Positions 1 through 12,160 of a DNA stretch of 64,000 nucleotides are shown here, one piece after another; position 1 is the stretch's first letter; each line of letters begins with the position of its first letter. This DNA comes from Oscillospiraceae bacterium (GTDB lineage Bacteria > Bacillota > Clostridia > Oscillospirales > Ruminococcaceae). The DNA is taken from positions 330,353-394,352 of the forward strand of contig JAJQGB010000009.1 in the NCBI GenBank assembly GCA_021200775.1. The letters run 5' to 3'. The notes below the pieces were generated by a model. The model did not search any database, was not told where the DNA came from, and worked only from the letters and a program-made list of their open reading frames with translations. Made by a program: the position numbers and the translations under genes.

Positions 1-878
1 ATACCTGCGAAATCGCTGAAAGATGTGCAGAACTGGGTCTTACTCTGTATGTCGACTTCCACTATTCTGATTTCTGGAGCGACCCGAGCCGCTCTTATGC
101 TCCGAAAGCCTGGGAGAATTATTCTCTTGAAGAGAAAGAGGCAGCTGTTGCTGAATTTACAACCGAAGCACTGGAGCAAATTGCAGCAACCGGAGTTGAA
201 ATCGGTATCGTTTCTGTGGGAAATGAAACAAATTCATACCTTGCCGGCGAAAGTGGAAATGAGAATATAGCAAAGCTCATCGCATCGGGCTGCGAAGCTG
301 TGAGAGAGTTCGATGACAGCATCCTTATCGCTGTTCACTTCACAAGTCCTGACCCGACAACCTACTATGGTTATGCAAATATGCTTGCAGCAGTGGGTGC
401 AGATTATGATATCTTTGCATCGTCCTACTATCCCTTCTGGCATGGAACGCTTGAGAATCTGACTGAAAGCCTTAATGCAGTAGCTCAGTCCTTCGGAAAG
501 CTCACTATGATTGCAGAGTATTCCTACGGAACAAGCGGAGCTTATGGCGAAGAGGTTGAGGATGTTTTTGGAACTCCGAGTGAAGACGGTCAGGTTCAGG
601 CAATAACCGTTCTTAACGAGGCTGCTGCGCAGATAGATAACTGCATCGGGACTTTTTATTGGGAGCCGGCATGGCTACTGACATCATCCGATACCTGGTC
701 AAGCGAAGGCTCCGGCTGGTTTAACACTCCTGCCGCTGAATACGACCTTTCAAATTCAAACATAACTGAAGCCCAAGGCAGTGCCTGCTACAACGAAGCC
801 CTCTTTGACAGTACTGGTCATCCCTACAAAGCCATAACCGAAGAAATCTTCAATGAAATCTGGACGGATGGGGAATAA
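1..878 (+). CDS. GH53 arabinogalactan endo-beta-1,4-galactanase, C-terminal part
   Basis: The gene enters from the left edge; frame 3 is open from base 3 and stops at 876-878, so only about 291 residues are present and the start is missing. GH53 enzymes cut beta-1,4-galactan side chains of pectin. Visible family marks are LYVDFHYSDFWSDP, the acid/base region GIVSVGNETN, a TIM-barrel strand FASSYYPFWHG and the nucleophile region MIAEYSYG, then a tryptophan-rich end (FYWEPAWL). Identification rests on these motifs and their order. No anchor or carbohydrate-binding module follows the domain, so the protein ends soon after the barrel. A stem-loop terminator lies 21 bases downstream. Localisation cannot be judged because the N-terminus is outside the window. 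Confidence 0.88.
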   Translation, partial: TCEIAERCAELGLTLYVDFHYSDFWSDPSRSYAPKAWENYSLEEKEAAVAEFTTEALEQIAATGVEIGIVSVGNETNSYLAGESGNENIAKLIASGCEAVREFDDSILIAVHFTSPDPTTYYGYANMLAAVGADYDIFASSYYPFWHGTLENLTESLNAVAQSFGKLTMIAEYSYGTSGAYGEEVEDVFGTPSEDGQVQAITVLNEAAAQIDNCIGTFYWEPAWLLTSSDTWSSEGSGWFNTPAAEYDLSNSNITEAQGSACYNEALFDSTGHPYKAITEEIFNEIWTDGE

Positions 879-899
879 GGAAATAAAACAAGTGTAAAT

Positions 900-935
900 A
901 AAAATCCCGCATCCGAAACCGGTTGCGGGATTTTT
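900..935. terminator. Rho-independent terminator, probably bidirectional
   Basis: A 12-bp perfect stem, AAAAATCCCGCA (900-911) with its complement at 924-935, and a 12-nt loop. T-runs occur on both strands, so it can end the galactanase transcript and the leftward small gene at 967-1326. Confidence 0.85.
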
Positions 936-966
936 GATACAAAACTTTGAAAATCGAGCTGTTTCG

Positions 967-1326
967 TCATTCGCACAATTTTGCCAGTTGAGAAAGAGCA
1001 ATCACAAACCACTGATAGTCCCTTTCCTCCATCGGTGACATCGACCAGTGATTGAAGTATCGCCATTGAGAATAGATAGCGTTTCCCAAAGTCTGGATAT
1101 CGAACTGGTCTATTACACGTTGCAATGCCTCATTGTCATTAAGCACGTCTGAGCCCGGAAATGCTTTTTCAACTGATTCGCCACAGTCCATGACAAAGCC
1201 CAGCTCAGAAAGACTTTCTCCCATGAACTCAATATCTTCAAAAAAGTATCCGGGAATAGTAGCATGATGCTTATACATTTCGCACCATATCAAAGCAAAA
1301 CGCCGGATTTTCTTTTTATCTTCCAT
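967..1326 (-). CDS. Hypothetical protein, 119 aa
   Basis: I do not recognise a family. The protein is soluble, mixed alpha/beta in appearance, with a basic start (MEDKKKIRR) and an aromatic C-terminal half (SQWRYFNHWSMSPMEERDYQWF). A good ribosome-binding site (AGGGAGG, 9 nt spacing) precedes ATG at 1326, and a consensus promoter lies immediately upstream, so it is a real single-gene unit. In the chromosome before island insertion it would have stood directly downstream of the rplM-rpsI terminator on the same strand. It shares a terminator with the converging galactanase gene. Confidence 0.7.
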   Translation of the reverse strand: MEDKKKIRRFALIWCEMYKHHATIPGYFFEDIEFMGESLSELGFVMDCGESVEKAFPGSDVLNDNEALQRVIDQFDIQTLGNAIYSQWRYFNHWSMSPMEERDYQWFVIALSQLAKLCE

Positions 1327-1348
1327 ATCGCCAGCCTCCCTTGAATTT

Positions 1349-1377
1349 ATTATATACTATTGGCTGTGAATGGTCAA
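1349..1377 (-). promoter_or_regulatory. SigA-type promoter of the 119-aa gene
   Basis: On the minus strand TTGACC (1372-1377) and TATAAT (1349-1354) are separated by 17 nt, upstream of the ribosome-binding site of the leftward gene ending at 967. Confidence 0.8.
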
Positions 1378-1380
1378 GAT

Positions 1381-1415
1381 AAAAATAAACCCCAGGCAAA
1401 ATGTCTGAGGTTTAT
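1381..1415 (-). terminator. Displaced terminator of the rplM-rpsI operon
   Basis: Inverted repeat 1385-1395/1405-1415, 11 bp with one G-U pair on the minus strand and a mismatch on the plus strand, followed on the minus strand by TTTT. It lies just beyond the left copy of the rpsI tail (1430-1445). The inference is that it ended rpsI transcription before the island inserted. Confidence 0.75.
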
Positions 1416-1429
1416 GTTCGTAGGAAAAA

Positions 1430-1445
1430 TTATCTCTTCGAGAAC
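1430..1445. repeat. attL: 16-bp copy of the rpsI 3' end
   Basis: TTATCTCTTCGAGAAC is identical to 11241-11256, which are the stop codon and last codons of rpsI on the minus strand. Bases on either side differ between the copies, so the repeat is exactly 16 bp. It marks the island's left boundary. Confidence 0.9.
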
Positions 1446-1697
1446 CCCGAATCCCTTAAAATAAAGGCTTTTCGCCTGTTTGTGTCATTCGGGTGCAATG
1501 TTCAAAGTTATCTGAAATGTTGGGAGAGTTCAACGCTTCCAGAAGCAATTATCTGCGATATAGCTTTAATCATCGCCAAAATTGCCTCTGAGAGCTAATA
1601 TAACGCTTTCTAAGGCGTTTTACCGGCTCACACGATAAACTTCACTTGTAACGGGAAAGTCGCTTAAAAAGCCGGAAATTGGGCTGTATGTGTGCCT

Positions 1698-1874
1698 TTA
1701 AAGCTTAATTCCATTATGTTCTAATTCCATATCCCTGTTGAACTCTTCTTTTACCTCTTCGGGTGCATCATCTCGTAACCCCTTGATTTCGCCATCATGA
1801 ATACCATCATAATCCGGCTCATCATCATAAGGATAGAAGATTGCATAATCCCACCAAATAGGCTTCTCCATCAT
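1698..1874 (-). CDS. Small acidic hypothetical protein, 58 aa
   Basis: An unbroken frame from ATG at 1874 to TAA at 1698-1700, with AAGGGG 9 nt upstream of the start. The product begins MMEKPIWWDYAIFYPYDD and is rich in Asp, Glu and aromatic residues. I know no family. It is transcribed leftward towards attL, downstream of the terminator at 1962-2001, so it would need its own promoter. The good ribosome-binding site and non-random composition support it; its function is unknown. Confidence 0.55.
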   Translation of the reverse strand: MMEKPIWWDYAIFYPYDDEPDYDGIHDGEIKGLRDDAPEEVKEEFNRDMELEHNGIKL

Positions 1875-1961
1875 GATTAAATACCCCTTAATTTCAGTTT
1901 CTATAAGTATTATATCGCTGTATGTTGATTATTGCAAGCGTTTCTGACTAAGTAAATAAGA

Positions 1962-2001
1962 AATCAGGCTATATAAGCCCGTAAGCCTGTATAGCCTGAT
2001 T
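1962..2001 (-). terminator. Terminator of the leftward late-like operon
   Basis: A 12-bp perfect inverted repeat, AATCAGGCTATA (1962-1973) with its complement at 1990-2001, follows the stop codon at 2054 in the direction of transcription and is followed by TTTCTTATTT on the minus strand. Confidence 0.7.
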
Positions 2002-2053
2002 AAGAAAGGGAAAAAGGCGGTATCATGACACCCACACCGCCGGAGCGGTTTAA

Positions 2054-2797
2054 TTAGATCTTATTGCCCGTTGTAAATGCCCTCATTATATCTCCAGAGG
2101 GTGTATATATGCTTCCCTCTTCCAGAATGGGGAGCATTTCGATCTGCTTTTTACTTGCTACAATGTTTCCGGTGTAGTAGTCGCCAGAATAGAACGGGTC
2201 GAGATAGTCTCTGAAAATCTTACAGATACGATTCTTTTCGTTTCCGTCATCGTCTGTATTGATTGCCATTTTTGCGGTTATGTCGCCGGTAGGCTGTCCA
2301 TATCCATTGAAGAAATTGCTTATAATACTTACGCATTCATCAACGTATTTTTTGAAGCTGTCAATAAAACGTAGGTACAACCCTTCACACTTTTTGTTGG
2401 TCTTTGCAATGTTAAGAATAGATCTAATGCAAGGATAGGAAGTTGCATACTTTTCAAGATAAAGCAGATACTCTAATTCTGTCATTCTATCCTGTCCCGC
2501 CGTAATCAAGGCAATATCAGTATTGAAGCTTTCCGGGACATCACCGCAAGCAATCTTTTTCAGTTCGCTATATGCCTCTCTCATAACGTCAACGCAAGCG
2601 TTAAGATGTTCCTTGTAGGACGGGGCAACGGCTTCGTGAAACTGCTTCATTATCTTGTTGTACTGGTCTGTATACTGCTTGCTTTCCTTAATCCAATGCT
2701 TGATTTTCTCCATTTCGCTTTTACGGGTCTTTTCTGCCTTATCCCAATCTGAAGCATATGCTCTCATATGAGACATCAATTTCTGTGAATAATTCAT
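2054..2797 (-). CDS. Island protein of unknown function, 247 aa
   Basis: I do not recognise the family. The first 90 residues are highly charged and probably coiled-coil or long helices (KAEKTRKSEMEKIKHWIKE and following). The middle is helical, and the C-terminal third is less regular, with a Gly/Tyr patch (FYSGDYYTGN). AAAGGA lies 9 nt before ATG. It is last in the leftward operon after terS, the 65-aa gene and the sigma factor, separated by a 95-bp gap. Its place in a satellite's late module suggests a role in helper interaction or particle formation, but this is position-based inference only. Confidence 0.6.
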   Translation of the reverse strand: MNYSQKLMSHMRAYASDWDKAEKTRKSEMEKIKHWIKESKQYTDQYNKIMKQFHEAVAPSYKEHLNACVDVMREAYSELKKIACGDVPESFNTDIALITAGQDRMTELEYLLYLEKYATSYPCIRSILNIAKTNKKCEGLYLRFIDSFKKYVDECVSIISNFFNGYGQPTGDITAKMAINTDDDGNEKNRICKIFRDYLDPFYSGDYYTGNIVASKKQIEMLPILEEGSIYTPSGDIMRAFTTGNKI

Positions 2798-2892
2798 TTT
2801 TGTTTGTCCTTTCTGTATTAAGTATTTGTAATGGCTTTTACCTTTACATTTTCATCCGTCCGGCTTCCATATCATAAAATCCTCCCTCTTTC

Positions 2893-3840
2893 TTAATTTG
2901 TTGCAAGGCTCATAATATCATCAAACAGTTTATCAATGCTTTCCCGCTCTGATTGCTCCCGTTCGGAGCGTTCAATGTTTCGGAGTGCCAGAAATTCAAC
3001 GATTGAGCTTCTATGATTTTTGAAATTCTGAAAACTGCCGTGATAAGCCTTGCTTCCTTCCAGATAACCACAATAACCGTAATTCTCAGCAATGGTTTTA
3101 AGGCTTTCTTTTTGGTGCAATATCTCTAAGGCTTTCGCCTCTATTTGCCGGACACGCTCAGAGGTCAGATTCATCCGCTTTCCGACCTCTTCCAGCGTTC
3201 TTGAATAGTGGTATCTCTCAGAAATTACTTCTCCCTGTTTACCGTCCAATTCATCAACGATTTTCCAAAGTTGAGCGGAAAGCTGTTGTTTCGCAATCGT
3301 TTCTGTAATTTCGTCTTCCATGTCTACTGGATCAGCAAGGCATTCTTCTATTGTGAAGTCATCCGTCCCGGCTACAATGTCACTTAAGCTTATGCACTCT
3401 GATTCCTGCATTGCTTTCCGCAAATTAGAAAGCTGTTTATCGTTGATTCCTAACGCTTCACATATTTCGGAATCGGCGGGATCTCTACCGTTTGCAGAAC
3501 ATTCCGAAACAAACTTCTTGTATTTCGCTATCCGTATCTGTAGATATTTCGGTATACGCCTTGTACTTTTGGTATCGGTTATATAGTGTTGCAAGGCGTG
3601 ATTCAGACACGGGGATAGGAAGGTTATAAATTTGTTTCCCATTTCCGGCTCAAAGGCTTCAACTGCTTTCAGCAAGCCAAAATATGATTCCTGCATTAAG
3701 TCATCAATTTCTGCATAGGCGGTATATCTTTTTGCAATCCCGTATATAAAGCGTTGATTCTGGAGAAAAAGCTGTTGCATAGCCTCTTTTGGATTGTCCC
3801 CGGTTTTGACCTGCAAAACCAACGCTTCATTGTCCACCAT
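2893..3840 (-). CDS. Sigma-70 family RNA polymerase sigma factor of the island, 315 aa
   Basis: Regions 2, 3 and 4 of a sigma-70 factor are visible. Region 2 runs about residues 27-105 (IYGIAKRYTAYAEIDDLMQE, then FEPEMGNKFITFLSPCLNHA), with a region-3-like helix pair around 105-150 and region 4 near 210-250 (SRTLEEVGKRMNLTSERVRQ, a clear HTH). The last 65 residues are an unusual polar extension. ATG at 3840 has AAGGCGGTG upstream, and the start overlaps the preceding gene by 14 bp, so the two are translationally coupled. Lying behind terS, it may direct RNA polymerase to satellite or helper late promoters. It is not a housekeeping RpoD because region 1 is short. Confidence 0.85.
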   Translation of the reverse strand: MVDNEALVLQVKTGDNPKEAMQQLFLQNQRFIYGIAKRYTAYAEIDDLMQESYFGLLKAVEAFEPEMGNKFITFLSPCLNHALQHYITDTKSTRRIPKYLQIRIAKYKKFVSECSANGRDPADSEICEALGINDKQLSNLRKAMQESECISLSDIVAGTDDFTIEECLADPVDMEDEITETIAKQQLSAQLWKIVDELDGKQGEVISERYHYSRTLEEVGKRMNLTSERVRQIEAKALEILHQKESLKTIAENYGYCGYLEGSKAYHGSFQNFKNHRSSIVEFLALRNIERSEREQSERESIDKLFDDIMSLATN

Positions 3841-4024
3841 CCAGCACCGCCTTTTTCAAGTCATCATAATAGGATTTGTGGATAGAAAACATTGCAATCA
3901 TTTTGTTTAAGGCATCCTGCCCGATTCCGGCTTCTTTTGCCATAAGGATATATTTCGCTTCTTCCTGTAGCTGTTTTTCGGATTCCTGCAAGCCGGTATT
4001 TTTCAAATATGCTGTTTTCTCCAT
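3827..4024 (-). CDS. Small helical island protein, 65 aa
   Basis: Unknown family. It begins MEKTAYLKNTGLQESEKQLQ and is predicted mostly helical and charged. A GGCGGGAG ribosome-binding site is 2-3 nt from ATG, and its stop overlaps the sigma gene start by 14 bp. It sits between terS and the sigma factor in one operon, so it may be a cofactor or anti-sigma partner; there is no sequence proof. Confidence 0.6.
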   Translation of the reverse strand: MEKTAYLKNTGLQESEKQLQEEAKYILMAKEAGIGQDALNKMIAMFSIHKSYYDDLKKAVLDGGQ

Positions 4025-4055
4025 GCTCCCGCCTCAATTCAAAGTGGTTTGCAAA

Positions 4056-4478
4056 CTATTCTTCTATATCACCAATGATTATAACGGGTTTGATTTCCGT
4101 GTCTATATTCTTTCTGAAAATCCCGTATCTCTTCCCAAGTAATTCTGCACACCTGATTCTGTCTTTTGCCGAAGTCTGGATCTCGATAACTTCCTGAATA
4201 CCCTTACCAACGAATATCAAAACCTGCTCTGTCTGCTCGCCTCTCATTACAGAGGTCAGATACTCCATAATCTCTTGTATCTCAGCTACTTTTTCAGTAT
4301 GGATTTTTTCAAGTTCACTGTTGATATAATCGGCTATCTTTTGATTATCAAGCAATTTCGCACCCTGTTCATTCGCTGTTTTTGGAGAATACCCCGCTCT
4401 GATTGCGGCTTTCGTTGCATTGCAATCAATCAGATATTCATCTGCAAAACGCTTCTGCTTCACTGTCAGCAAATTCAT
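4056..4478 (-). CDS. terS: Phage terminase small subunit
   Basis: About 140 aa and a clear Terminase_2 family N-terminus: LTVKQKRFADEYLIDCNATK followed by AAIRAGYSPKTANEQGAKLL, the DNA-binding HTH. The middle (residues 50-100) is the helical oligomerisation part, and the acidic tail ends IIIGDIEE. TerS selects the DNA to be packaged and recruits TerL. No TerL gene is present, so the island must borrow one; satellites use their own TerS to divert helper packaging to their own pac site. The start is the ATG at 4478 (AAAGAGG just upstream); a TTG one codon earlier is too close to the ribosome-binding site. First gene of the leftward operon, behind a strong promoter. Confidence 0.88.
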   Translation of the reverse strand: MNLLTVKQKRFADEYLIDCNATKAAIRAGYSPKTANEQGAKLLDNQKIADYINSELEKIHTEKVAEIQEIMEYLTSVMRGEQTEQVLIFVGKGIQEVIEIQTSAKDRIRCAELLGKRYGIFRKNIDTEIKPVIIIGDIEE

Positions 4479-4514
4479 CAACCCTCTTTCTATTCTGAAA
4501 TATTTGTTACTTCT

Positions 4515-4542
4515 ATTATACCATATATTGTGCTAAAGTCAA
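4515..4542 (-). promoter_or_regulatory. Strong promoter of the leftward terS operon
   Basis: On the minus strand TTGACT (4537-4542) and TATAAT (4515-4520) with 16-nt spacing. A 12-bp palindrome ACTATATATAGT (4552-4563) sits just upstream and could be a regulator site. Confidence 0.75.
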
Positions 4543-4574
4543 CAATAAAATACTATATATAGTGGTTTTACACA

Positions 4575-4606
4575 AAAAAATAGGGGGCATACAACCCCTT
4601 ATTTTT
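4575..4606. terminator. Terminator between repressor and terS operon
   Basis: Stem GGGG/CCCC extended by A/T pairs, flanked by a run of seven A on one side and TTATTTTT on the other. It can stop leftward repressor transcription before the terS promoter. Confidence 0.6.
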
Positions 4607-4736
4607 GAAAGTTTATCTTCAATTCTGAATCTGGATTATTACACCCACATGACACAAGAGTCGCCGTGAAGGCTTAATTCACGGCGATTTGTAGTTATCT
4701 AAGGCATAACATCGCTTCCGCTACACTGGGAGCGAT

Positions 4737-5411
4737 TTATTTTTGTTGCTTTTTCCAAATTTGATACTCAACTGATTCCTTAATACGTTCCCGAAAATCG
4801 TCAAATTCTTTTTCAGTAAAATCTACTGTATTTCCGTCTTTGGACAGCTCCAATAAACAGTCTTCACCATCGCTGGAAGTGAGAACCTCAAAAGTGTAAC
4901 CTATTGATTTTAGATACACTTCGATAGCCTCTATTTCTTTAACCTCTTTTGCAAGTGCTTCAGAATCAATGATTTCATTAAATTTACTCCAAGGATTTGT
5001 TTTTAAATCCCGAAGATGAACGCCCAACGTCCTTGCGATCTTAATCAAAATAGGCTGTGGAGCTATGCGCTCTCCCGACTCATAGCGTCTTATGCTCATT
5101 GTGGACAAGCCGGTCATCTTAGCAAGCTCTTCTTGTGTTAGTCCTCTTAATTTTCGGTATTTACGAATCCGTTTACCATCGGATTCCGCTTCTGTGTGAT
5201 CAGTTTCCAAAAGGTCAGAAGTAGTTACGCCTAACGCAGTAGCGATTTCGTCTAACACATTTAAGGGAATCGTTACAAGACCTTTTTCGTATTTACATAC
5301 AGAACTTTCAGTTTTACCGATTTTATCAGCAAGTTCCTTTTGTGTCATCTTTCCTTTTCGGTACTGTTTAATTTTTAACCCGATTTCTTGGTCACGTTCA
5401 CTTAAATCCAT
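4737..5411 (-). CDS. Tandem-HTH (XRE/CI-like) repressor, 224 aa
   Basis: Two complete Cro/CI-type HTH domains follow one another: residues 10-65 (IKQYRKGKMTQKELADKIGK) and 78-132 (RKYRKLRGLTQEELAKMTGL). A C-terminal mixed region of about 80 residues has no recognisable peptidase or LexA catalytic Ser/Lys signature. The start is ATG at 5411, preceded by GAGGTGATT; a longer reading to 5498 would add a hydrophobic stretch without a ribosome-binding site. It is transcribed away from the replication genes, with a consensus rightward promoter in the 178-bp gap. This is the layout of a satellite or phage master repressor; lacking a cleavage domain, it may be lifted by a helper-phage antirepressor, as for SaPI Stl. 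Confidence 0.82.
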   Translation of the reverse strand: MDLSERDQEIGLKIKQYRKGKMTQKELADKIGKTESSVCKYEKGLVTIPLNVLDEIATALGVTTSDLLETDHTEAESDGKRIRKYRKLRGLTQEELAKMTGLSTMSIRRYESGERIAPQPILIKIARTLGVHLRDLKTNPWSKFNEIIDSEALAKEVKEIEAIEVYLKSIGYTFEVLTSSDGEDCLLELSKDGNTVDFTEKEFDDFRERIKESVEYQIWKKQQK

Positions 5412-5491
5412 GCAATCACCTCTATTTACGTTCAGTTTATCACAAACGACTATAAAAATCAAGGCAATTTTAATTTTTGTGAAAATTCCTA

Positions 5492-5520
5492 TTGACAACG
5501 CTAACGAAAATCATTATAAT
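5492..5520 (+). promoter_or_regulatory. Perfect-consensus rightward early promoter
   Basis: TTGACA (5492-5497), 17-nt spacer, TATAAT (5515-5520). It drives the genes from 5590 to at least the primase and faces away from the repressor gene, so it is the likely repressor target. The leftward repressor promoter is less clear; a possible -10 lies near 5440. Confidence 0.88.
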
Positions 5521-5589
5521 AGAACTATCAGCAACCATATTGTAATAATCGGTTATATTTCGGAATGATACGAGAAAGGAAGGGCTATA

Positions 5590-5817
5590 ATGTGCGAAAT
5601 AATAGATTTGGTTTCTTGCAGATTAAAAAAAGAGGACATTGAAGAATGGGAGATAATAATCTCTAACGATTACAGCGAACGAATCAGTATAAGACGGAAT
5701 CCAGAAAGTCATAAACTTATGATTTTTATCTTCACGGATTCATTTGAACGGATTGATTTATTGAAAAATCAGGCACTCATAGACGCAAAAGAATTAGTTA
5801 TGAAGAATAAGGTTTAA
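5590..5817 (+). CDS. Small island protein, 75 aa
   Basis: Unknown family. AAGGAAGGGC precedes ATG. It starts MCEIIDLVSCRLKKEDIEEW and then has alternating strand-like stretches (ISIRRNPESHKLMIFIFTD). It is the first gene behind the consensus early promoter, the place where many satellites and phages keep small regulators. Function not known. Confidence 0.65.
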   Translation: MCEIIDLVSCRLKKEDIEEWEIIISNDYSERISIRRNPESHKLMIFIFTDSFERIDLLKNQALIDAKELVMKNKV

Positions 5818-5862
5818 AACCTTTTCGGGCAGTACTGTAAGTAATCAGAAAGGATTGAAGCC

Positions 5863-6102
5863 ATGTACAAAATATCATCTACTCCAGAATCCAGTAATCC
5901 GCCGGAAGAACTAAGTCCGCTCGCACAAATTCAAGCTACCTATGGGTTGAAAACACGGGAAGCAGTCGAAATGTTTACTCAACTTGATTCCGAAGATAGA
6001 GCGGAAATTTGCGGGGAAATGAAGCAAATGCTCAAAAACAAAAGAATTATCAAGGAAGAAGGCAATGTAATCTATATCAGGTTTCATTCAGTACAAAATT
6101 AA
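5863..6102 (+). CDS. Small island protein, 79 aa
   Basis: Unknown family. AGAAAGGA lies 8 nt before ATG. The first 25 residues are Pro/Ser-rich and probably disordered. The rest looks like three short helices (YGLKTREAVEMFTQLDSEDR, EICGEMKQMLKNKRIIKEE) and a strand. Second gene of the rightward operon. Confidence 0.6.
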   Translation: MYKISSTPESSNPPEELSPLAQIQATYGLKTREAVEMFTQLDSEDRAEICGEMKQMLKNKRIIKEEGNVIYIRFHSVQN

Positions 6103-6201
6103 GTAGATAAAAGAAGTTCCGCCGGTACTGCAATACTGGCACAGGGCTAAATAGGATAAAGTGATTTGGTGTAATATTCCAAACAGAAAGAAGGTGAAAG
6201 C

Positions 6202-6399
6202 ATGAAAATCAACTCTCAGAAATTGCAGATTGCAATGGCAAATGCAGCTTATTCCGCAAAAGAGCTTTCTGAAAAGTGTGGTATTTCTCAGGTTACTATC
6301 ACACGAATCAGCAAGGGCTTTCAAGAAGCAAGACCGCAAACCATCGGCAAAATTGCAAAGGCTCTTAATGTCCCGGTTACGGATATTATCGAAGAGTAG
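6202..6399 (+). CDS. Single-domain HTH (XRE) DNA-binding protein, 65 aa
   Basis: The whole protein is one Cro/CI HTH: LQIAMANAAYSAKELSEKCG then the recognition helix around ISQVTITRISKGF and a closing segment KIAKALNVPVTDIIEE. AAGGTGAAAGC precedes ATG. It is encoded in the early operon opposite the tandem-HTH repressor, so it is the natural Cro-like or excisionase-type counterpart (compare Str of SaPIs). Binding sites are not evident by eye. Confidence 0.8.
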   Translation: MKINSQKLQIAMANAAYSAKELSEKCGISQVTITRISKGFQEARPQTIGKIAKALNVPVTDIIEE

Positions 6400-6401
6400 A
6401 G

Positions 6402-6430
6402 ATTCCGAAGCAAACCAAATTATCAAGAAA
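6402..6430 (+). repeat. Imperfect direct repeat, copy 1
   Basis: ATTCCGAAGCAAACCAAAT and the following TATCAAGAAA closely match 9517-9541 (ATTCCGAAGCAACCAAATCA). Both lie in leader regions, before the primase and before the integrase. Confidence 0.55.
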
Positions 6431-6484
6431 GGCAGGTTAAATCATGTTGTACAAATTTAGAAATGAGAAAGGGGTGGGGAATAG

Positions 6485-8455
6485 ATGGAACCTAAATATA
6501 TTAGATTCCTCGGCGGTAAATATCCGGGAGTAAAAAAGGAAGACCGTGTATATACCGACAATCCGCAAAGTGATTGGAATAGTTACGGTGCTTCATATAG
6601 TTCAGAATTCTTTAAACTGGATATTGACGATTACAGTCACAAAACAGGTGAGCTTGAAGAGCCTATACACGGTAAACCTCGCAGTGAAGCTATTGTTGCA
6701 ATACTGGATTCTTTGGGTATACGCTACAACGGTATAGCTACGGAGCATGGAAAACACCTATTTTTCCGTGTACCCGCTGTCCTTGAAAAGAAGAATAAGA
6801 CCGATTGGTATTGCCCTTTAGGTGTGAAGTGTGAGTGGAAATTCCCTGATTCAGATGACCATATACCACTGAAAATTAACGGAGTAGAGCGACAATTTTT
6901 TAAGGGTTCAATTACCGATGAGGATATAGACGAATTACCGCCATTTCTATACCCGCTACAGGGATATAGGCACAAACCATTTGACCTCGATTTTCCCGAA
7001 GGTGACAGAACACAGAAATTAGGTGCGTATCTATTCTATTTAGTCAATAAGGGATTTACGGCGGAGCAGGCATTTCAGGCTATAGACTTGATGAACGCAT
7101 ATATCTTTGAAGTACCTATTCCAGAAAACTTACTCAAAAGCCAAATACTCAATGAAAGCACACTGAAGAAGGCTATGGATCAGCAACAGGACAAAGCCGA
7201 AAAGTCAATACTACATTCGGATTTGGCAAAAGAGATTATAGAGCGTTTCGGAATAATCACAGTAAACGGCGATTTTTATGCATACGAAAACGGGGTATAT
7301 AAACCGTTTTCAGACGGGAGAATCACCAATTACTTAACAGTGTATCACCCTAAATTGAATAGCAATTATGAGCGGGAAGTTATAAGGCATATCAAGGGAT
7401 TAACATATACCGAATATCCAAAAGACGATGGAACGGTAAATGTTAAAAACGGGATTTTGAATTTCTCGCCGGATGGTACGGTTGAGCTTTTACCACATAC
7501 GGATGAACACATAAGTTTCAGACAATTTAACGCCGTCTATAATCCAGCTATCCAAAGTAAGAAGCTTGATGATACTTTGTTGCAATGGTTCAACGGAAGT
7601 TCAAAGCAGATTGAACTATTCGATCAGTTGATGGGATATCTGCTTATGAATCATGTGCGTTATCAGAAGGTATTTTTCTTTGTGGGTGCGCCGTCAACAG
7701 GAAAAAGCACTCTGTTAAAGCTGATAACCCACTTTTGCGGAAGTGAAAATGTTTCTGCATTACAGCTTGACGATTTAGGAAAGCCTTTTGGACTTGCTCC
7801 ACTGGTGAATAAGGTAGCAAATATATTTTCAGACATACGAAAGACGAAAGTCTTATCTTCCGAAACCTTTAAAATGCTGTCAGACGGTGGACAATTAACA
7901 ATCAATCAGAAGTACAGACAACCTTTTAACTACGTTTTTACAGGAAAGCTTCTTTTTGGTATGAACAATTACCCGGATTTCTCACAGGATTTTGACGGAA
8001 TAGAAAGGCGTATTGTAATCTTTGAGTTCAAACACGTTTTCCAAAAGAACGATCCGCAATTTGATTCTGCGATTATTACAGCCTTAACTTCCGCCGATTG
8101 TATGTCTGCATTGCTTAACCACGCAATCAGAGGCTATAAAACCCTGATTCAGAATGACGGCTTTATTACAACGGAAGAAAGCGAAAACGCACTATCCGAT
8201 TTTGTCAGCGAAAATGACAATGTTATAAGGTGGTTACGGGAAGCAGAAATTACCGAAGATTATTTATTGCGTGAGCCAATAAAAATGGACGGCTACAAAG
8301 GCTTATACCCGCAATACACGGCGTTTTGTATTAGTGCCGGAGAGGAAGCCAAAGCACAAAAGGACTTTTCAAAGCTAATATGCAACAAATACGGTTTTGT
8401 CACTCGCACAAAACGCATTAACGGGCAAAGACCGCAGGTATTCTTAAAAAAGTAA
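6485..8455 (+). CDS. Prim-Pol / SF3 (D5-like) primase-helicase, 656 aa
   Basis: Replication initiator of the island. The N-terminal 200 residues resemble the bifunctional primase-polymerase fold, with an acidic pair in FFKLDIDDY and a downstream GKHLFFRVP (His/Arg of the active site). The C-terminal half is a D5/P4-type SF3 helicase: Walker A GAPSTGKST at residues 401-409, a following VANIFSDIRKTK, and an arginine-finger region IERRIVIFEF. A DUF5906-like winged end closes the protein. Strong ribosome-binding site AAAGGGGTGGGG. It is the largest island gene and is followed 2 bp later by the iteron-like inverted repeat, matching the pri-rep/ori arrangement of PICIs. Confidence 0.85.
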   Translation: MEPKYIRFLGGKYPGVKKEDRVYTDNPQSDWNSYGASYSSEFFKLDIDDYSHKTGELEEPIHGKPRSEAIVAILDSLGIRYNGIATEHGKHLFFRVPAVLEKKNKTDWYCPLGVKCEWKFPDSDDHIPLKINGVERQFFKGSITDEDIDELPPFLYPLQGYRHKPFDLDFPEGDRTQKLGAYLFYLVNKGFTAEQAFQAIDLMNAYIFEVPIPENLLKSQILNESTLKKAMDQQQDKAEKSILHSDLAKEIIERFGIITVNGDFYAYENGVYKPFSDGRITNYLTVYHPKLNSNYEREVIRHIKGLTYTEYPKDDGTVNVKNGILNFSPDGTVELLPHTDEHISFRQFNAVYNPAIQSKKLDDTLLQWFNGSSKQIELFDQLMGYLLMNHVRYQKVFFFVGAPSTGKSTLLKLITHFCGSENVSALQLDDLGKPFGLAPLVNKVANIFSDIRKTKVLSSETFKMLSDGGQLTINQKYRQPFNYVFTGKLLFGMNNYPDFSQDFDGIERRIVIFEFKHVFQKNDPQFDSAIITALTSADCMSALLNHAIRGYKTLIQNDGFITTEESENALSDFVSENDNVIRWLREAEITEDYLLREPIKMDGYKGLYPQYTAFCISAGEEAKAQKDFSKLICNKYGFVTRTKRINGQRPQVFLKK

Positions 8456-8457
8456 AG

Positions 8458-8580
8458 TGTCAACCTGTCAATCTGAAACGGCGATTTTATCCCTTTCGTG
8501 AAGAAAAAAAGAAAGTGAAAACACTTTGTTTTATCATAGGGAAAAGTATAAAATATAATAATTAGATTGACAGGTTGACA
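8458..8580. other. Candidate replication origin: iteron pairs around an AT-rich core
   Basis: A 17-bp perfect inverted repeat, TGTCAACCTGTCAATCT (8458-8474) with its complement at 8564-8580, encloses 89 bp of AT-rich DNA. Each arm holds two copies of TGTCAA in direct orientation 8 bp apart, so there are four six-base iterons. The core has a small hairpin (AAAGTGAAAACACTTT, 8511-8526). SaPI origins are described as short iteron sets flanking an AT-rich stretch next to rep; the match in position and design is the reason for this call. Confidence 0.65.
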
Positions 8581-8598
8581 GAAAGGAAAGTAAACTAA

Positions 8599-8943
8599 AT
8601 GAGATTCACAGAATTTAAACGGTCGATTCCTCAGTTGGAATCCGGGCGGGTCTTGATAGACCTTGACAGTCTGGAAAAGTACCCTTCCGATAACAATAAA
8701 CTTACCGTATTGGTGCGTGACCGCCGGTCTTTCCAGAAGGGTGGAGTATGGCACGTTTATCCGATAGCGTTATCAGAATCACAGGTATATATCGTATGTC
8801 CCTATTGTGGTGAGATTCACGTCCACGGAAACGACAGGGGAGACTATAAAGGATTTAGATCTGTACACTGTCACACATCCACATATGAGTATAGAAAAGA
8901 TTACTGCATAGATAATCTTCCAGAAGAGAAAGGCGGTGAATAA
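8599..8943 (+). CDS. Zinc-binding-like island protein, 114 aa
   Basis: Unknown family. Residues about 75-98 contain a Cys/His cluster (VCPYCGEIHVHG, then SVHCHTSTYEY) that could be a zinc ribbon. The N-terminal half looks like strands (RVLIDLDSL, KLTVLVRDRR). A ribosome-binding site GAAAGGAAAG is present 18 bp after the origin-like repeat. It overlaps nothing and is followed after 2 bp by the 63-aa gene. Probably a nucleic-acid-linked accessory protein, by inference. Confidence 0.62.
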   Translation: MRFTEFKRSIPQLESGRVLIDLDSLEKYPSDNNKLTVLVRDRRSFQKGGVWHVYPIALSESQVYIVCPYCGEIHVHGNDRGDYKGFRSVHCHTSTYEYRKDYCIDNLPEEKGGE

Positions 8944-8945
8944 TT

Positions 8946-9137
8946 ATGACAGTAAAACTCACAGAGCAACAGATTCAAGAGGTAATCGACAGAGAGGATA
9001 AGGTAAGGGCTATTCTCGAATGTCTCAGGTATGGACTCAAACTGGACGGCAAAGACGATCTCGATGTCCTTGATTTGGTGGAAGCTGTACTTGACTATCT
9101 GAATGAGAATTACAAACTCTTCATGCCCGGTCTCTGA
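8946..9137 (+). CDS. Small acidic island protein, paralogue A, 63 aa
   Basis: Unknown family; helical and acidic. It shares with the next gene the pattern LTE, DRE-K-R-IL, DVLDLVE, LDYLNEN, K-F, GL at the end. Even the bases after the stop are alike (TCTCTGATTCCGGG). AAAGGCGGTGAATAATT precedes ATG. Tandem duplication suggests a dosage or interaction role; function unknown. Confidence 0.6.
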   Translation: MTVKLTEQQIQEVIDREDKVRAILECLRYGLKLDGKDDLDVLDLVEAVLDYLNENYKLFMPGL

Positions 9138-9181
9138 TTCCGGGAGCAATGGACACTGAAAAAGAAAGGTGGTGAAACGAT

Positions 9182-9367
9182 ATGACACTTACAGAGCGGG
9201 AAATGCGTGAGATAAGCGATAGAGAGAAGAAAGCAAGGTCAATTCTTAAAGGTATCACGGAAATTTTTGCAATGGGTAGCGGAGAGAATATTGATGTCCT
9301 TGATTTGGTAGAATCGGCTCTTGACTATCTCAACGAAAACGAAAAGTACTTCTCAGCCGGTCTCTGA
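9182..9367 (+). CDS. Small acidic island protein, paralogue B, 61 aa
   Basis: A divergent duplicate of the preceding gene: it keeps DREKKARSIL, IDVLDLVESALDYLNENEK and the GL terminus, while residues 20-35 differ. Ribosome-binding site AAAGGTGGTG 8-10 nt before ATG. Different codons at conserved positions show the duplication is not recent. Function unknown. Confidence 0.6.
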   Translation: MTLTEREMREISDREKKARSILKGITEIFAMGSGENIDVLDLVESALDYLNENEKYFSAGL

Positions 9368-9377
9368 TTCCGGGCGG

Positions 9378-9431
9378 GGTGTGTGCATAGTTGCAAAAAA
9401 CTAAGTTTTACTAACCAATTATGCACACACC
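9378..9431 (+). terminator. 12-bp inverted repeat after the paralogue pair
   Basis: GGTGTGTGCATA (9378-9389) and its perfect complement at 9420-9431 enclose 30 nt. It could end the early operon, although there is no T-run; a protein-binding or excision role is also possible. Confidence 0.4.
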
Positions 9432-9489
9432 AGCTACTTTGATAAATTTGGATTTATCGGGGTAACGCCTGCACAAAATCTAAAAAAGA

Positions 9490-9519
9490 AATTCCTATCT
9501 ACTGCAATAGATAGGAATT
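9490..9519. terminator. 12-bp perfect hairpin before the integrase gene
   Basis: AATTCCTATCTA (9490-9501) with its complement (9508-9519) and a 6-nt loop, preceded by an A-run. It is an efficient-looking hairpin in the integrase leader; the A-run would act as a T-run only on the minus strand. Confidence 0.5.
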
Positions 9520-9541
9520 CCGAAGCAACCAAATCAAGAAA
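9517..9541 (+). repeat. Imperfect direct repeat, copy 2
   Basis: ATTCCGAAGCAACCAAATCA and the following bases match 6402-6430 apart from a few inserted bases. It follows the hairpin at 9490-9519 and precedes the integrase. Confidence 0.5.
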
Positions 9542-9620
9542 CCTGCAAGAATCACGAAGTGGTTATATCTTATTATACCATTCCGTGATTCAAAAGTCAA
9601 CGAAAGGAATGGTATTTAAT

Positions 9621-10673
9621 ATGCGTTTACCTAACGGATTTGGCAATGTGTCGAAGCTCCCCGGAAATCGGCGGAAGCCGTACCGGGCGAGGATAACTGT
9701 TAGTTGGGAAGTGGACGAAAGCACCGGGAAGGTGAGACAACAATTCAAAACTATAGGCTATTACGAAACCAAAGAAGAAGGTCTGATTGCTCTTTCACTC
9801 TATCATCAAAACCCGTATGATATGGATAGCACCAAAATCACGTTTAAGGAAGTCTTTGAAAAATGGTCTGCTGAAAAGTATCACAAAATATCAGATTCCA
9901 ATATCAAGGGCTACAATGCCGCTTATCGCTCATGTGAGATTTTGGAGAATATGCGATTTGTGGATATAAAGAGAGCGCACCTGCAAGGCGTGATTGACAA
10001 TTCCGGGAAGAATTATCCCACAATGAAGAAAATAAAAAGCCTTTTCAATCAGCTTTACAAGTTCGCAATGCAGAATGATTTATGCAGTAAGGATTATTCA
10101 AAGTATGTGGATATAGAGCAATACCGGGATAAGAATCCAAACGCACTAAACCGAAAGCCATTCAGCAAAGCAGAAGTTCAAACGGTCTGGAACTGGAAAG
10201 ACACAAACGAATATTTTTCTGTTATCCTCATGTTGATTTATTCCGGGCTTCATATTGGTGAACTGCTTAATCTGAAGAAAGAAGATGTGAACCTTTCGGA
10301 AAGGTGGTTTGACGTGACCGCTTCCAAAACAGAAGCCGGAATCCGTAAAGTCCCGATTGCAGAAAAGATTGTACCGTTCTTTGAGTACTGGATGAACAAA
10401 AACGACTGCGAATATGTTCTTTCAACCCCGGAGGGAAAGCGTTTTGAATATCGCAATTTTTACGATTCTTATTGGTTACCACTCATTGAACAAATGGGAA
10501 TGCAACACTATCCACATGATACCCGTCACACCTGCATTTCTCTTTTGACCGTTGCCGGAGTGCAAGATAAAATCATCAAAAAGATTGTAGGGCATAAAGG
10601 GCAATCAGTCACGGAAGTTGTATATACCCATTTTGAAATTCAGGAACTTATCGAAGCCATCAATAAGATTTAA
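9621..10673 (+). CDS. int: Tyrosine recombinase / phage integrase, 350 aa, with Arg-to-His at catalytic position I
   Basis: N-terminal arm-binding AP2-like domain (residues 1-60), SAM-like core-binding domain (about 65-160) and catalytic domain (180-350). Catalytic residues visible: Lys236 (TASKTEAG), His299 and Arg302 (PHDTRHTC), His325 (VGHKG), Tyr335 (VVYTHF). The box I arginine is replaced: YSGLHIGELL has His211 (CAT, 10251-10253) where the family has Arg. Start: ATG at 9621 after AAAGGA; an upstream GTG at 9585 has no ribosome-binding site. It lies next to attR and acts on the rpsI 3' end. With the substitution, activity is doubtful. Confidence 0.9.
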   Translation: MRLPNGFGNVSKLPGNRRKPYRARITVSWEVDESTGKVRQQFKTIGYYETKEEGLIALSLYHQNPYDMDSTKITFKEVFEKWSAEKYHKISDSNIKGYNAAYRSCEILENMRFVDIKRAHLQGVIDNSGKNYPTMKKIKSLFNQLYKFAMQNDLCSKDYSKYVDIEQYRDKNPNALNRKPFSKAEVQTVWNWKDTNEYFSVILMLIYSGLHIGELLNLKKEDVNLSERWFDVTASKTEAGIRKVPIAEKIVPFFEYWMNKNDCEYVLSTPEGKRFEYRNFYDSYWLPLIEQMGMQHYPHDTRHTCISLLTVAGVQDKIIKKIVGHKGQSVTEVVYTHFEIQELIEAINKI

Positions 10674-10687
10674 GGCGGTGCTTCTTC

Positions 10688-11026
10688 TTGGATAGAACGG
10701 AATACAAGAACAAACACAAAGCAAAACACTATGACCGAATAGAATTAGCTGTACCAAAAGGCATGAAAGCTATTATAAAAAGCCTTGCTTCAGATAAGGG
10801 GCTTTCCGTCAACTCATACATTCAGGACTTGATAACCAAAGATCAGGATGGGATGTTTGATACAATGCAGATTGCAGAAAAGAACCGTGAAATGCTATCA
10901 GGTATTCAAGGAAATATGCACGATGGGTATAACGTGGTTTTCAAAGATGGTTACATAGTACATTGTAAAACCAAAAAGGAAGTCAGAACTGCGATAATCG
11001 AATACTGCAAGGAAAAGAGCGTTTAA
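10688..11026 (+). CDS. Ribbon-helix-helix-like / Arc-type DNA-binding protein, 112 aa
   Basis: The N-terminal half resembles an Arc/MetJ ribbon-helix-helix: a basic start, RIELAVPKGMKAIIKSLASD, then KGLSVNSYIQDLITKD. The C-terminal half (residues 60-112) holds a strand-rich segment (YNVVFKDGYIVHCKTKKEV) and is not recognised. The start is TTG at 10688, 7 nt after AAGGCGGTG, which overlaps the integrase stop region, so it is probably coupled to int. It could be an excision factor or regulator of integration; an antitoxin role is possible but no toxin partner is seen. Confidence 0.6.
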   Translation: MDRTEYKNKHKAKHYDRIELAVPKGMKAIIKSLASDKGLSVNSYIQDLITKDQDGMFDTMQIAEKNREMLSGIQGNMHDGYNVVFKDGYIVHCKTKKEVRTAIIEYCKEKSV

Positions 11027-11039
11027 ATGCGCTCTTTTC
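11012..11039 (+). terminator. Terminator of the int operon
   Basis: GAAAAGAGCG (11012-11021) pairs perfectly with 11030-11039, overlapping the stop codon of the 112-aa gene, and is followed by TTT. Confidence 0.7.
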
Positions 11040-11051
11040 TTTGGTTTTCGT

Positions 11052-11164
11052 GTCTTACGGAAGATTGCAAAAGTCTTACGGAAGACACCTATTCTCATGT
11101 GTCATACCCGTGTCATATGTGTGTCATACCTCACACCGTTTCACATCGTCTCACGCCGTCTCAC
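11052..11164. repeat. Cluster of short iterated repeats between int and attR
   Basis: Three families in 113 bp. GTCTTACGGAAGA occurs twice (11052-11064, 11073-11085). GTGTCATA occurs three times (11099, 11110, 11121). A 10-bp unit TCACRYCGTY occurs three times in tandem plus a partial (11131-11164). Spacing of one helical turn suggests protein-binding sites, such as integrase arm sites or directionality-factor sites. Confidence 0.65.
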
Positions 11165-11181
11165 AGGTTGAACAACATTGA

Positions 11182-11216
11182 AAAACCCTCGAAAAAAAGG
11201 CTTTTTCGAGGGTTTT
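11182..11216. terminator. Bidirectional terminator beside attR
   Basis: A 15-bp perfect stem (11182-11196 with 11202-11216) around CCCTCG, loop AAGGC, A/T tracts on both sides. It closes the island operon on the plus strand and replaces the displaced rpsI terminator on the minus strand. Confidence 0.85.
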
Positions 11217-11240
11217 GACAGTTTGCAATATTCGATTTTC

Positions 11241-11256
11241 TTATCTCTTCGAGAAC
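11241..11256. repeat. attR: 3' end of rpsI
   Basis: TTATCTCTTCGAGAAC, identical to 1430-1445. It includes the rpsI stop codon, so the island leaves the S9 C-terminus (FSKR) intact. Confidence 0.9.
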
Positions 11257-11642
11257 TGCGGTGCTCTTCTTGCAGCCTTTAAGCCGTACTTCTTTCTTTC
11301 CTTCATACGAGGGTCTCTCGTGAGGAAGCCTGCGGCTTTGAGCTGAGGACGGAGGTCGTTGTTATACTGGAGCAAAGCTCTTGAAATACCATGTCTGATA
11401 GCGCCTGCCTGACCGGTAACTCCACCGCCGGAGACGGTGCAGACTACGTCGAAGGTTCCTTCTGCTCCAACGAGCTTCAGAGGCTGACGGACGATGAGCT
11501 TCAGGGTTTCAAGACCGAAGTAATCGTCGATGTCTCTGTCATTGATGGTAACCTTGCCGGTTCCCTGATAAAGTCTTACTCTTGCGACAGAGCTCTTTCT
11601 TCTGCCGGTTCCATAGAAATAAGCTGATTTAGATTCGTACAT
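11241..11642 (-). CDS. rpsI: 30S ribosomal protein S9
   Basis: 133 aa with the S9 hallmarks: [20 protein letters not shown], the [15 protein letters not shown] loop and the C-terminal [10 protein letters not shown] tail that reaches the P-site tRNA. Co-transcribed behind rplM with 15 bp between them. Its last codons are the attachment site of the adjacent island. The island restores the reading frame exactly. Confidence 0.98.
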
Positions 11643-11657
11643 GATTCATCCTCCTTC

Positions 11658-12086
11658 TTAAAGCTCGATGGTTTCGGGCTGCTGAGCGGCATGAGGATGC
11701 TCCGAACCCTTGTAAACGCGAAGTCTCTTGGCGGAGTTGGCGCCGATGGTGTTGTGGGGAAGCATACCCTCGACAGCTATCTTCATAGCTCTCTCCGGCT
11801 CCTTCTCCATCATGTCGGAATACTTGTATTCCTTCAGGTGTCCAATCCAGCCGGTGTGCCATCTGAGAACCTTCTTGTTAATCTTGTTTCCTGTGAGAAC
11901 TGCCTGTGCGCAGTTGATGATGATAACGTGGTCTCCGCAATCAACGTGAGGAGTGTAGGTGGGCTTATGCTTGCCATTGAGAATGGTAGCGGCTGCGGCG
12001 GCGACTCTTCCGAGAGGCTTGCCAGCGGCGTCGATAACATACCACTTGCGCTCAACATTCTGCGGCTTTTCCATAAATGTTGACAT
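11658..12086 (-). CDS. rplM: 50S ribosomal protein L13
   Basis: 142 aa, typical length. Family motifs: [20 protein letters not shown], the [17 protein letters not shown] segment, [13 protein letters not shown] and the end [22 protein letters not shown] follows AGGAGGAAATTAA. First gene of the rplM-rpsI operon, with a consensus promoter about 80 bp upstream and a leader hairpin that probably allows feedback control by L13. Confidence 0.98.
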
Positions 12087-12114
12087 TTAATTTCCTCCTA
12101 TTGGAATTAATAAA

Positions 12115-12160
12115 CCTTGCGCCTTGAAATAGGGCACAAAGCCTTGCTTTTCAAGCGACG
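12115..12160 (-). promoter_or_regulatory. L13-leader-like RNA structure
   Basis: In the rplM 5' leader a 9-bp stem (12133-12141 with 12115-12123, including G-U pairs) and a second CTTG/CAAG hairpin (12143-12155) lie between the promoter and the ribosome-binding site. Firmicutes are known to carry an autoregulatory L13 leader here; the fold is seen, the identity inferred. Confidence 0.5.

Follow-up and report, generated by a model that had tools for sequence, protein, structure and literature searches.

A PICI-like island of a Ruminococcus-like bacterium with a sigma-70 family factor in its terS operon

An integrated element of 9.8 kb (9,827 bp) occupies positions 1430-11256 of the window, the whole stretch of 64,000 nucleotides analysed, in a Ruminococcus-like bacterium. 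From its sequence the island is well supported as an integrated phage satellite of the PICI-like type and, on a slender balance of probability, its sigma-70 family factor would be the satellite's own late-transcription factor. The satellite identity, suggested in a preliminary description, has been strengthened by copies at the same site, att counts, a divergence unlike that of the host, the exchange of its replication module and the large number of relatives with a sigma gene.

Insertion site and copies in related genomes

The element is flanked by perfect 16-bp repeats, TTATCTCTTCGAGAAC (Table 1), which give the longest exact match when the two end stretches are compared. The 2,064,343-base assembly contains these two copies and no others, bearing out the att repeats of the preliminary description. 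The right copy forms the 3' end of rpsI (minus strand, 11241-11642); the island had been described as inserted in that gene and does lie at its 3' end, but rpsI is undisrupted and its 133-aa frame is whole. The integrase is likewise adjoined by rpsI in L055, L056, L057 (approximately 12.6 kb), L064, L065 and L093, as in the window, and by a 30-aa end piece of it in L071; in L064 and L065 the compared end stretches share no repeat of at least 12 bases.

A search for syntenic islands in relatives had been proposed, and two related genomes hold the element at the same site, in sister islands of 9,727 and 8,956 bp, with the sigma clade as a whole present at 15 loci. Among 31 genomes of the genus, the source genome included, three carry the sigma factor and the same three have two att copies, and 15 have one copy and are read as empty sites from copy count alone. 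Between islands, dS was 0.06-0.20 for the sigma, u247, integrase, arc and primase genes and 0.51-0.87 for host pepF, host genes beside the island also falling below pepF (rplM 0.11-0.27, rpsI 0.18-0.50). The wider range for terS (0.04-0.35) shows the operon to be a mosaic.

Gene content and comparison with known satellites

Scans covered all 15 island genes, 10 of the 15 with Pfam and all 15 with PHROGs. They bear out the integrase (a tyrosine integrase, Pfam 2.3e-17), the repressor with divergent operons (a Cro/CI-type repressor on the minus strand against a plus-strand operon) and the small terminase (a Terminase_2 TerS, Pfam 1.3e-33, phrog_51 3e-41) that had been described. No match of weight to packaging (TerS aside), structural or relaxase-like genes was obtained among the 15 genes, nor any match between 12 phiC2 packaging and structural proteins and window positions 1-13000, in agreement with the earlier report that structural, TerL and relaxase genes are absent. 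The one strong TerL of the host genome belongs to a short cluster of head genes on contig C14.

Table 1. Features of the island (window coordinates)
Feature	Position	Strand	Basis or remark
attL, 16-bp repeat	1430..1445	.	repeat search
58-aa gene, last before attL	1698..1874	-	in both sister islands, 88% and 81% identity
u247, 247-aa protein	2054..2797	-	98% and 96% in sister islands
sigma-70 family factor, C-terminal extension ~residues 246-315	2893..3840	-	Pfam, alignment
u65, small gene overlapping sigma start	3827..4024	-	homologues before sigma in many related islands
terS, Terminase_2	4056..4475	-	Pfam, PHROGs
terS-operon promoter region	4513..4563	-	TTGACT 4537-4542, 16-bp spacer, TATAAT 4515-4520
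Cro/CI-type repressor, two HTH_3 stretches	4737..5411	-	Pfam, PHROGs
75-aa early gene	5590..5817	+	no family matched
79-aa early gene	5863..6102	+	no significant family
Cro-like regulator	6202..6399	+	Pfam, PHROGs
P4-family primase/helicase	6485..8455	+	Pfam, PHROGs, TIGRFAM
candidate replication origin, inverted 17-bp arms around AT-rich stretch	8458..8580	.	
114-aa gene	8599..8943	+	96% in L023
63-aa gene, paralogue of next gene (9182..9367)	8946..9137	+	repeat D1; no family
61-aa gene, cluster c9	9182..9367	+	no family
tyrosine integrase	9621..10673	+	99% in both sister islands, 83% in L093
Arc-like small DNA-binding protein, adjoins integrase	10688..11026	+	phrog_13890 9.4e-26; Arc-like match weak
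attR = rpsI 3' end	11241..11256	.	repeat search

Of the Prim-Pol/SF3 helicase described earlier, the C-terminal helicase/primase part stands (P4-family domain TIGR01613, 153.8 bits against a cut-off of 108.7, and DUF5906), but an N-terminal Prim-Pol domain found no Pfam match (E up to 0.1); the same protein gave an insignificant match to a TerS profile (E 0.07). The supposed iteron-like origin remains a candidate origin, in form a perfect 17-bp inverted pair (8458-8474 and 8564-8580) that can also be seen by eye in L055. A 586-aa gene of another cluster occupies the primase position in L025/L056. Integrative mobilizable elements can have an integrase and a replication module of this size, yet a conjugation-moved element of that kind is scarcely credible here, as a relaxase-like match is absent among the 15 genes scanned and neither terS nor the tape-measure genes of relatives fit conjugation.

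The integrase, replication module and master regulator that make up PICI organisation in the consulted extract of PMC6092414 are all present. At 9,827 bp the island fits the PICI size range, for which an average of 9.5 kb has been published (PMC10803314), and falls below the 12-15 kb given in that extract of PMC6092414. PICIs are further characterised by att sites of their own that prophages never use, a trait on which the rpsI site described above bears. The island carries terS, as some PICIs do, and fits the PICI trait of having no structural or lytic genes, to which several relatives, with tape measure, TerL or major head protein, do not conform. In common with Gram-positive PICIs of the SaPI type it combines an integrase, a divergent repressor, a primase/replication module and terS in about 10 kb, with no TerL, capsid or lysis genes; it differs from them in the analysed sigma-70 factor of its late operon, in having relatives with tape measures and in the hosts of its family, which are Oscillospirales/Lachnospirales-type Clostridia. 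Own capsid genes, the mark of cf-PICIs, are absent from the window island, whereas L067, L181 and L173 resemble cf-PICIs in having a major head protein alongside a sigma of this family.

The sigma factor had been held to fall outside PICI descriptions, but the accessible portion of PMC8407400 lists an RNA polymerase sigma factor gene, named and unanalysed, in one staphylococcal PICI, SscPIC2865 of S. sciuri. According to the same portion this SaPI4-type element also bears TerS and lies at the 3' end of a ribosomal gene (rpsR) between 15-bp repeats, with the sigma gene in its 3' region, a gene likened to ours by annotation name only. Satellite tape measures have also been published: in the part of PMC12987554 consulted, the PLE of Vibrio cholerae builds chimeric tails with a satellite tape measure, chaperone and hub, and tmp genes are reported in some cf-PICIs. 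Relatives of the island resemble PLE, as far as the tail-gene strategy alone is compared, in encoding a tape measure preceded by small genes, whereas the window island has a sigma factor and no tape measure. The novelty of the present findings is reduced by these two sources, to the extent of the text available from them.

The sigma factor, its operon and its relatives

The sigma factor (315 aa) exceeds the Pfam cut-off in each of sigma-70 regions 2, 3 and 4 and scores 88.8 bits (cut-off 42.9) against the sigma-70 superfamily TIGR02937. It is not the housekeeping RpoD/SigA, since it falls outside the RpoD clade and below the cut-offs of the RpoD equivalogs among the best 25 of 60 families. The factor resembles SigA closely in region 4.2 and does not in region 2.3; its loss of the SigA-type Trp-Trp motif could make promoter opening poor and would speak against a late-transcription role. 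The structure model is moderate (pLDDT 66.4), with the C-terminal stretch mostly one helix. The factor is 95-98% identical in congeners and under purifying selection (dN/dS 0.16-0.19); judged from such comparisons it is real, conserved and selected. It matched 51 records of named phages, with none covering 80% of its length. Single-sequence scans of viral contigs with sigma and u247 gave no confirmed match; later viral-contig scans recovered sigma loci. Defence models run on 10 proteins left nine without a match, LeoB matching the c72 protein of L060 marginally (E 0.001).

The placing of sigma directly behind terS needs a small correction: it is close behind, as the second gene, with u65 (65 aa) between and overlapping its start. 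In the sister island L056 u65 is missing, with only a chance-level 10-residue match. In L180 the 218-aa gene immediately preceding sigma matches u247 distantly (22% over 190 aa; E 1.6e-9, from a comparison of 10 sequences); no profile similarity was found among u247, c24 and c72, three proteins of about 250 aa near sigma, and the structure model of u247 (pLDDT 38.6) is not usable.

The island sigma clade, separate from host RpoD, is found at 15 loci, and in the tree 13 satellite sigmas group with that of L173 (99/96) and are split from eight host RpoD sequences (100/100). L075 is not in this tree; from the 18-locus set L072 was dropped as unrelated and L069 and L071 lie outside the alignment and tree, and in the 14-locus set L182-L184 were set aside, annotation does not extend to L175 and L179, and L179 is outside the tree. 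An intact TerS or TerS-like gene lies upstream of sigma at nine of the 15 main-clade loci, six belonging to the Terminase_2 cluster and three to a second type that matches TerS only weakly, and sigma is retained in L062, where terS was not detected, and in L075, where it is truncated. At ten of the 15 the sigma operon continues into a tape-measure gene; reaching tail-assembly genes in this way, sigma would there head a virion-remodelling module. L027/L063 additionally has a DUF2577 gene, and L073 a gene matching the 'putative LysM' of phiC2, from a family called endolysin in PHROGs. Satellite tape measures run to 860-908 aa (1044 aa in L058; that of L075 is cut by the contig end), those of six phage contigs to 701-884 aa (with short frames in L085, 530 aa, and L089, 453 aa), that of phiC2 to 762 aa and those of unassigned contigs to 650-1166 aa, and on these frame lengths the idea that satellites have shorter tape measures than helpers was rejected; L089 (<500 aa) was left out of the tape-measure tree.

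Capsid or TerL genes in relatives had been named as the finding that would indicate a decayed prophage, and they were found in part: a major head protein in L173 of the main clade and in the distant L067 and L181, and TerL with an HK97-gp10-like gene in L093, the contig of which ends 55 bases past the last gene, so that further genes are possible. Together with the ten tape-measure operons these genes speak for a prophage that has lost its virion genes. That history is nevertheless very improbable, as no full virion set appears at any main-clade locus in the available sequence, several genera show the same reduced layout and the frames are under selection; the lack of a full set points to piecemeal pick-up.

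The sister island L093 (integrase 83%, TerS 62% identical to the window island) has no sigma, and in the sigma region, behind c72, carries a phrog_36 'transcriptional regulator' (2.6e-15). Over 142 bp the gene for this regulator shows 100% identity with its counterpart on viral contig L095, and between the TerL proteins of the two the identity is 99%; L094, a 99.98% copy of L093, is not independent. We take phrog_36 to be of the RinA/ArpU kind. The satellite sigmas match its profile weakly (1.6e-5; 2.3e-8) and resemble phage late regulators (phrog_36 by position) in adjoining packaging genes, as RinA/Ltr regulators do in the part of PMC13123087 consulted, where Ltr is put at approximately 130 aa, against 315 aa for the island's sigma-70 factor. 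The phage-type regulator in the sigma region of L093, taken with the tape-measure operons, leads us to infer that sigma may be the satellite's own late-transcription factor. Its absence from L093 would also suit a passenger, a moron or the remnant of a phage late regulator with no role in the cycle, as would viral contigs L176 and L177, read as prophages, in which a distant sigma is placed some 6 kb ahead of TerS and the large gene that follows; the arrangement in these two contigs counts for the late-factor reading as well. Such a passenger is improbable, however, given purifying selection and the persistence of one sigma clade while replication module, TerS type and tail genes were exchanged.

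The terS-operon promoter, with a conserved spacer motif and an upstream dyad (4552-4563), looks sigma-A-like. Promoter regions were compared by eye before terS, u247, the last small genes, g967 and c12. The motif ACAATATATnGTATAATTA (at most 3 mismatches) precedes the late operon in nine loci compared and recurs at 2-3 mismatches in L062, L073 and L075, none of which was used in deriving it; first-order resamples (3 per locus, first 20 kb) gave 0 matches. L063 and L064 each have one additional 3-mismatch match elsewhere in the locus, and none was found in L059 and L066-L071. None of 7 phage contigs has the motif, nor have 11 of 12 other viral contigs (L111 has one 3-mismatch match), and these scans give no sign of promoters shared with a helper. 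As a sigma-dependent promoter the motif was rejected because L093 carries it; since this sigma-less island keeps the terS promoter, the operon does not require sigma for its own transcription.

Neither inspection by eye of the upstream regions of island and loci nor the motif scan brought out a sigma-specific promoter. The lack of a target inside the island and the diverged region 2.3 would both suit a satellite whose sigma is an interference factor, diverting RNA polymerase from helper late promoters or competing with the helper regulator and so curbing helper yield, interference with helpers being a PICI trait in the extract of PMC6092414 consulted. We consider this rather unlikely: at ten of the 15 loci sigma stands ahead of tail-assembly genes in one operon, where co-expression with virion parts is expected, and L093 has a phage-type late regulator in the sigma region.

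Proposed life cycle and implications

In the life cycle proposed, a helper phage would lift repression by the island repressor, the integrase would excise the island and the primase/helicase replicate its DNA. The conserved promoter would then drive the late operon of terS, u65, sigma, u247 and small genes; TerS would steer helper TerL and capsids to island DNA, and sigma would bind host RNA polymerase and support transcription for particle production, most likely at the late promoters on which the late regulator of the helper usually acts. We infer in this sense that the island may reprogramme late transcription. More tentatively, there could be a Clostridia satellite lineage with its own late programme, in which sigma derives from phage late regulators takes RNA polymerase to late promoters, and shares its operon with TerS and, in the majority of members, with a tape measure and adjacent tail parts for chimeric tails.

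The clade is a satellite family in which sigma is conserved while the terminase, capsid and tail genes near it are gained and lost. Its members include records titled as cultured strains (Acetatifactor muris DSM 23669, Faecalibacterium gallinarum JCM 17207 and Pseudoflavonifractor sp. An85), and for that reason the late-timing role is testable. Satellites are generally thought to depend on the helper for late timing. The keeping of sigma by related elements in other bacteria suggests that satellites may control their own late expression; if so, they would set the timing and parts of their particles with no wait for the helper's late regulator, and a satellite-encoded sigma would be a separate handle on late timing.

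The island at rpsI and its probable movement

The window island (9,827 bp) ends in a perfect 16-bp repeat with exactly two copies in the 2.06-Mb assembly, the right copy being the final 16 bases of rpsI, the frame of which is intact. Outward from a central switch, the plus strand carries two small genes, a Cro-like regulator, a P4-family primase/helicase, an AT-rich stretch with inverted arms, three small genes, the integrase and an Arc-like protein; the minus strand carries, in order, the repressor, terS, u65 (65 aa), sigma, u247 (247 aa) and a 58-aa gene. The earlier claim that structural genes are lacking stood for the island itself, in scans covering 15 of its 15 genes with PHROGs and 10 of 15 with Pfam, but failed for the wider family, since relatives carry virion genes. 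The neighbouring gene beyond attL (see table) is homologous to g967, a 187-aa satellite gene which in related islands sits after the tape measure and matches phrog_2329 at its N-terminus. The homologue lacks the N-terminal domain in frame, retains a promoter-like sequence (by eye) and may be left over from a satellite that once occupied this site.

A search for syntenic islands in related genomes, suggested as a check in the preliminary description, revealed two sister islands at rpsI in congeners, L023/L055 and L025/L056, each pair being two handles for one DNA (100% identical over the overlap). In L025/L056 a 586-aa gene of another cluster stands where the primase is, and no primase match was found. 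Sigma is present in 3 of the 31 genomes of the genus, own included; the att pattern, searched with one base left free and with single copies counted by pattern alone, whatever their gene, occurs in 18 (two copies in the three sigma carriers, one in 15) and is missing from 13. Between window and sisters dS was 0.06-0.13 for sigma (dN/dS 0.16-0.19), 0.08-0.16 for u247, 0.12-0.17 for arc, 0.13-0.20 for integrase, 0.19 for primase and 0.04-0.35 for terS, against 0.51-0.87 for the host gene pepF, 0.18-0.50 for rpsI and 0.11-0.27 for rplM. By pepF the island is far younger than the host split; the contrast is weaker against the constrained ribosomal genes rpsI and rplM. The pattern is read as movement between species.

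Features by locus and position
Locus	Position	Strand	Feature
Window	1430-11256		Window island
Window	967-1326	minus	g967 homologue, 119 aa, just beyond attL
L057, related island	1470-1571; 14048-14149		Pair of imperfect ~100-bp repeats, 12.6 kb apart, in register at rpsI
L058	4746-5000		Mor-type activator gene directly ahead of terS promoter
L063	7536-7787		As above
L093	6060-6314		As above
L058	12347-14050		c12, ~560 aa; with homologues, towards end of many tape-measure islands
L067	7794-9231		Scaffold and/or major head protein shortly 5' of satellite-family sigma
L181	1305-2668		As above
L173	335-1183		As above
L091, own contig C14	201-7687		TerL, portal, scaffold, major head protein, head protein, tail protein, endolysin (PHROGs)

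The sigma family

Among 149 relatives' genomes, sigma was strongly matched in only three besides the own, at 98%, 95% and 44% identity, and all other matches scored as ordinary sigma factors do; u247 was found in three. A four-sequence profile run against 396 family genomes (limit E 1e-40) yielded four matches above 500 bits and seven at 140-165 bits. Scanning a species-genome collection gave 18 loci, and viral contigs brought in L073, L075, L173 and more distant loci. The main clade, defined by sigma identity of at least 40%, comprises 15 loci (window, L055-L065, L073, L075, L173). In a 33-row tree 13 main-clade sigmas and that of L173 cluster at 99/96, and satellite sigmas split from eight host RpoD at 100/100.

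Residues 20-243 of the window sigma align (E 4.4e-25) with a SigA whose structure has been solved; in that comparison nothing significant matched the C-terminal stretch. Region 4.2 is close to SigA, and region 2.3 reads FSTYATWWIRQAITR in SigA versus FITFLSPCLNHALQHYI in the window sigma. Opening and recognition of the -10 element fall to the SigA-type Trp pair and the residues that follow, and from this difference we infer that the window sigma would use -10 elements differently.

Terminase, virion genes and a possible helper

An intact TerS or TerS-like gene lies upstream of sigma in 9 of the 15 main-clade loci, of the Terminase_2 cluster in the window, L055-L058 and L060, and in L063-L065 of a second type that resembles TerS profiles only weakly (phrog_2538, E 3e-6 and 6e-7). 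It is truncated in L075 and was not detected upstream of sigma in L062; in L059, L061, L073 and L173 the contig ends nearby, with the terS region out of sight. A tape measure with full frame occurs in 8 of the 15 (L058, L059, L060, L062-L065, L073); in L075 the contig end truncates it, in L173 it is broken into two frames, L057 and L061 keep a remnant, and neither the window island nor either of its sisters has one. In a tree with phage tape measures, nine satellite copies and that of L074, counted here apart from the satellites, cluster at 97/97. The gene was likely acquired once, but L058 sits on a long branch and the tool warns of long-branch joins. L027/L063 also carries DUF2577, L073 has a gene matching the 'putative LysM' of phage phiC2 (54% of 123 aa), and the phiC2 tail sheath was matched in 8 of 14 tested viral contigs bearing a satellite-type tape measure, of which L077 and L081 look alike. 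The c12 protein has, by eye, a signal-like start, a low-complexity linker and a C-terminal membrane anchor, and no Pfam or PHROG match. L067, L181 and L173 are, on gene content, predicted capsid-encoding relatives.

The host genome holds two TerL (phrog_2) matches, one strong in the C14 head-gene cluster and one marginal (E 5e-5), and a helper may be absent from the source assembly. The head protein of the C14 cluster occurs in 16 of 31 genus genomes, the 15 carriers besides the own genome having one copy each at 65-83% identity; the cluster resembles, by the description in the available part of PMC12946183, a Faecalibacterium gene transfer agent operon.

A proposed late regulator and its standing

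Viral contig L093, which bears a sister island, combines rpsI with an integrase of 83% identity, a TerS of 62%, a Mor-type activator and the motif of the terS promoter; sigma gave no match there at E 1e-8. After terS follow TerL (Terminase_3), a homologue of c72 of the sigma islands, the 160-aa phrog_36 regulator, one small gene and a protein resembling HK97 gp10. Between L093 and viral contig L095, which come from different metagenomes, the TerL proteins share 99% identity and a 142-bp stretch of the regulator gene is 100% identical. The region after terS/c72 can carry either a phage-type regulator or sigma, and it is mainly on this ground that sigma is read as a late regulator. Since L093 has the terS promoter motif without sigma, the motif does not need it; a sigma-specific promoter was not found. 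Mor-type activators were matched in L057, L058, L060, L063-L065 and L093, and not in the window island or its two sisters.

In the parts available, PMC6092414, source of the PICI criteria, has 'sigma' solely as a supplier name, and PMC12987554 describes PLE tape measures, chimeric tails and tmp genes in some cf-PICIs; further background was taken from portions of PMC10803314, PMC11389934, PMC11364771, PMC4936722 and PMC13123087. Sigma had been called foreign to standard PICI descriptions, which must be narrowed: PMC8407400, in the part available, names a gene for an RNA polymerase sigma factor on a PICI of staphylococci, its authors supposing a possible role in replication, so that such a gene is already in print, unanalysed. 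No further satellite with a sigma factor emerged from the literature searched, a scope without preprints and most subscription papers. The window island is very probably a satellite; that sigma is its own late factor is slightly favoured. Judged by sequence comparison, the island would be a satellite of PICI-like type; its sigma is conserved and under selection, and is the mark of a wider family.
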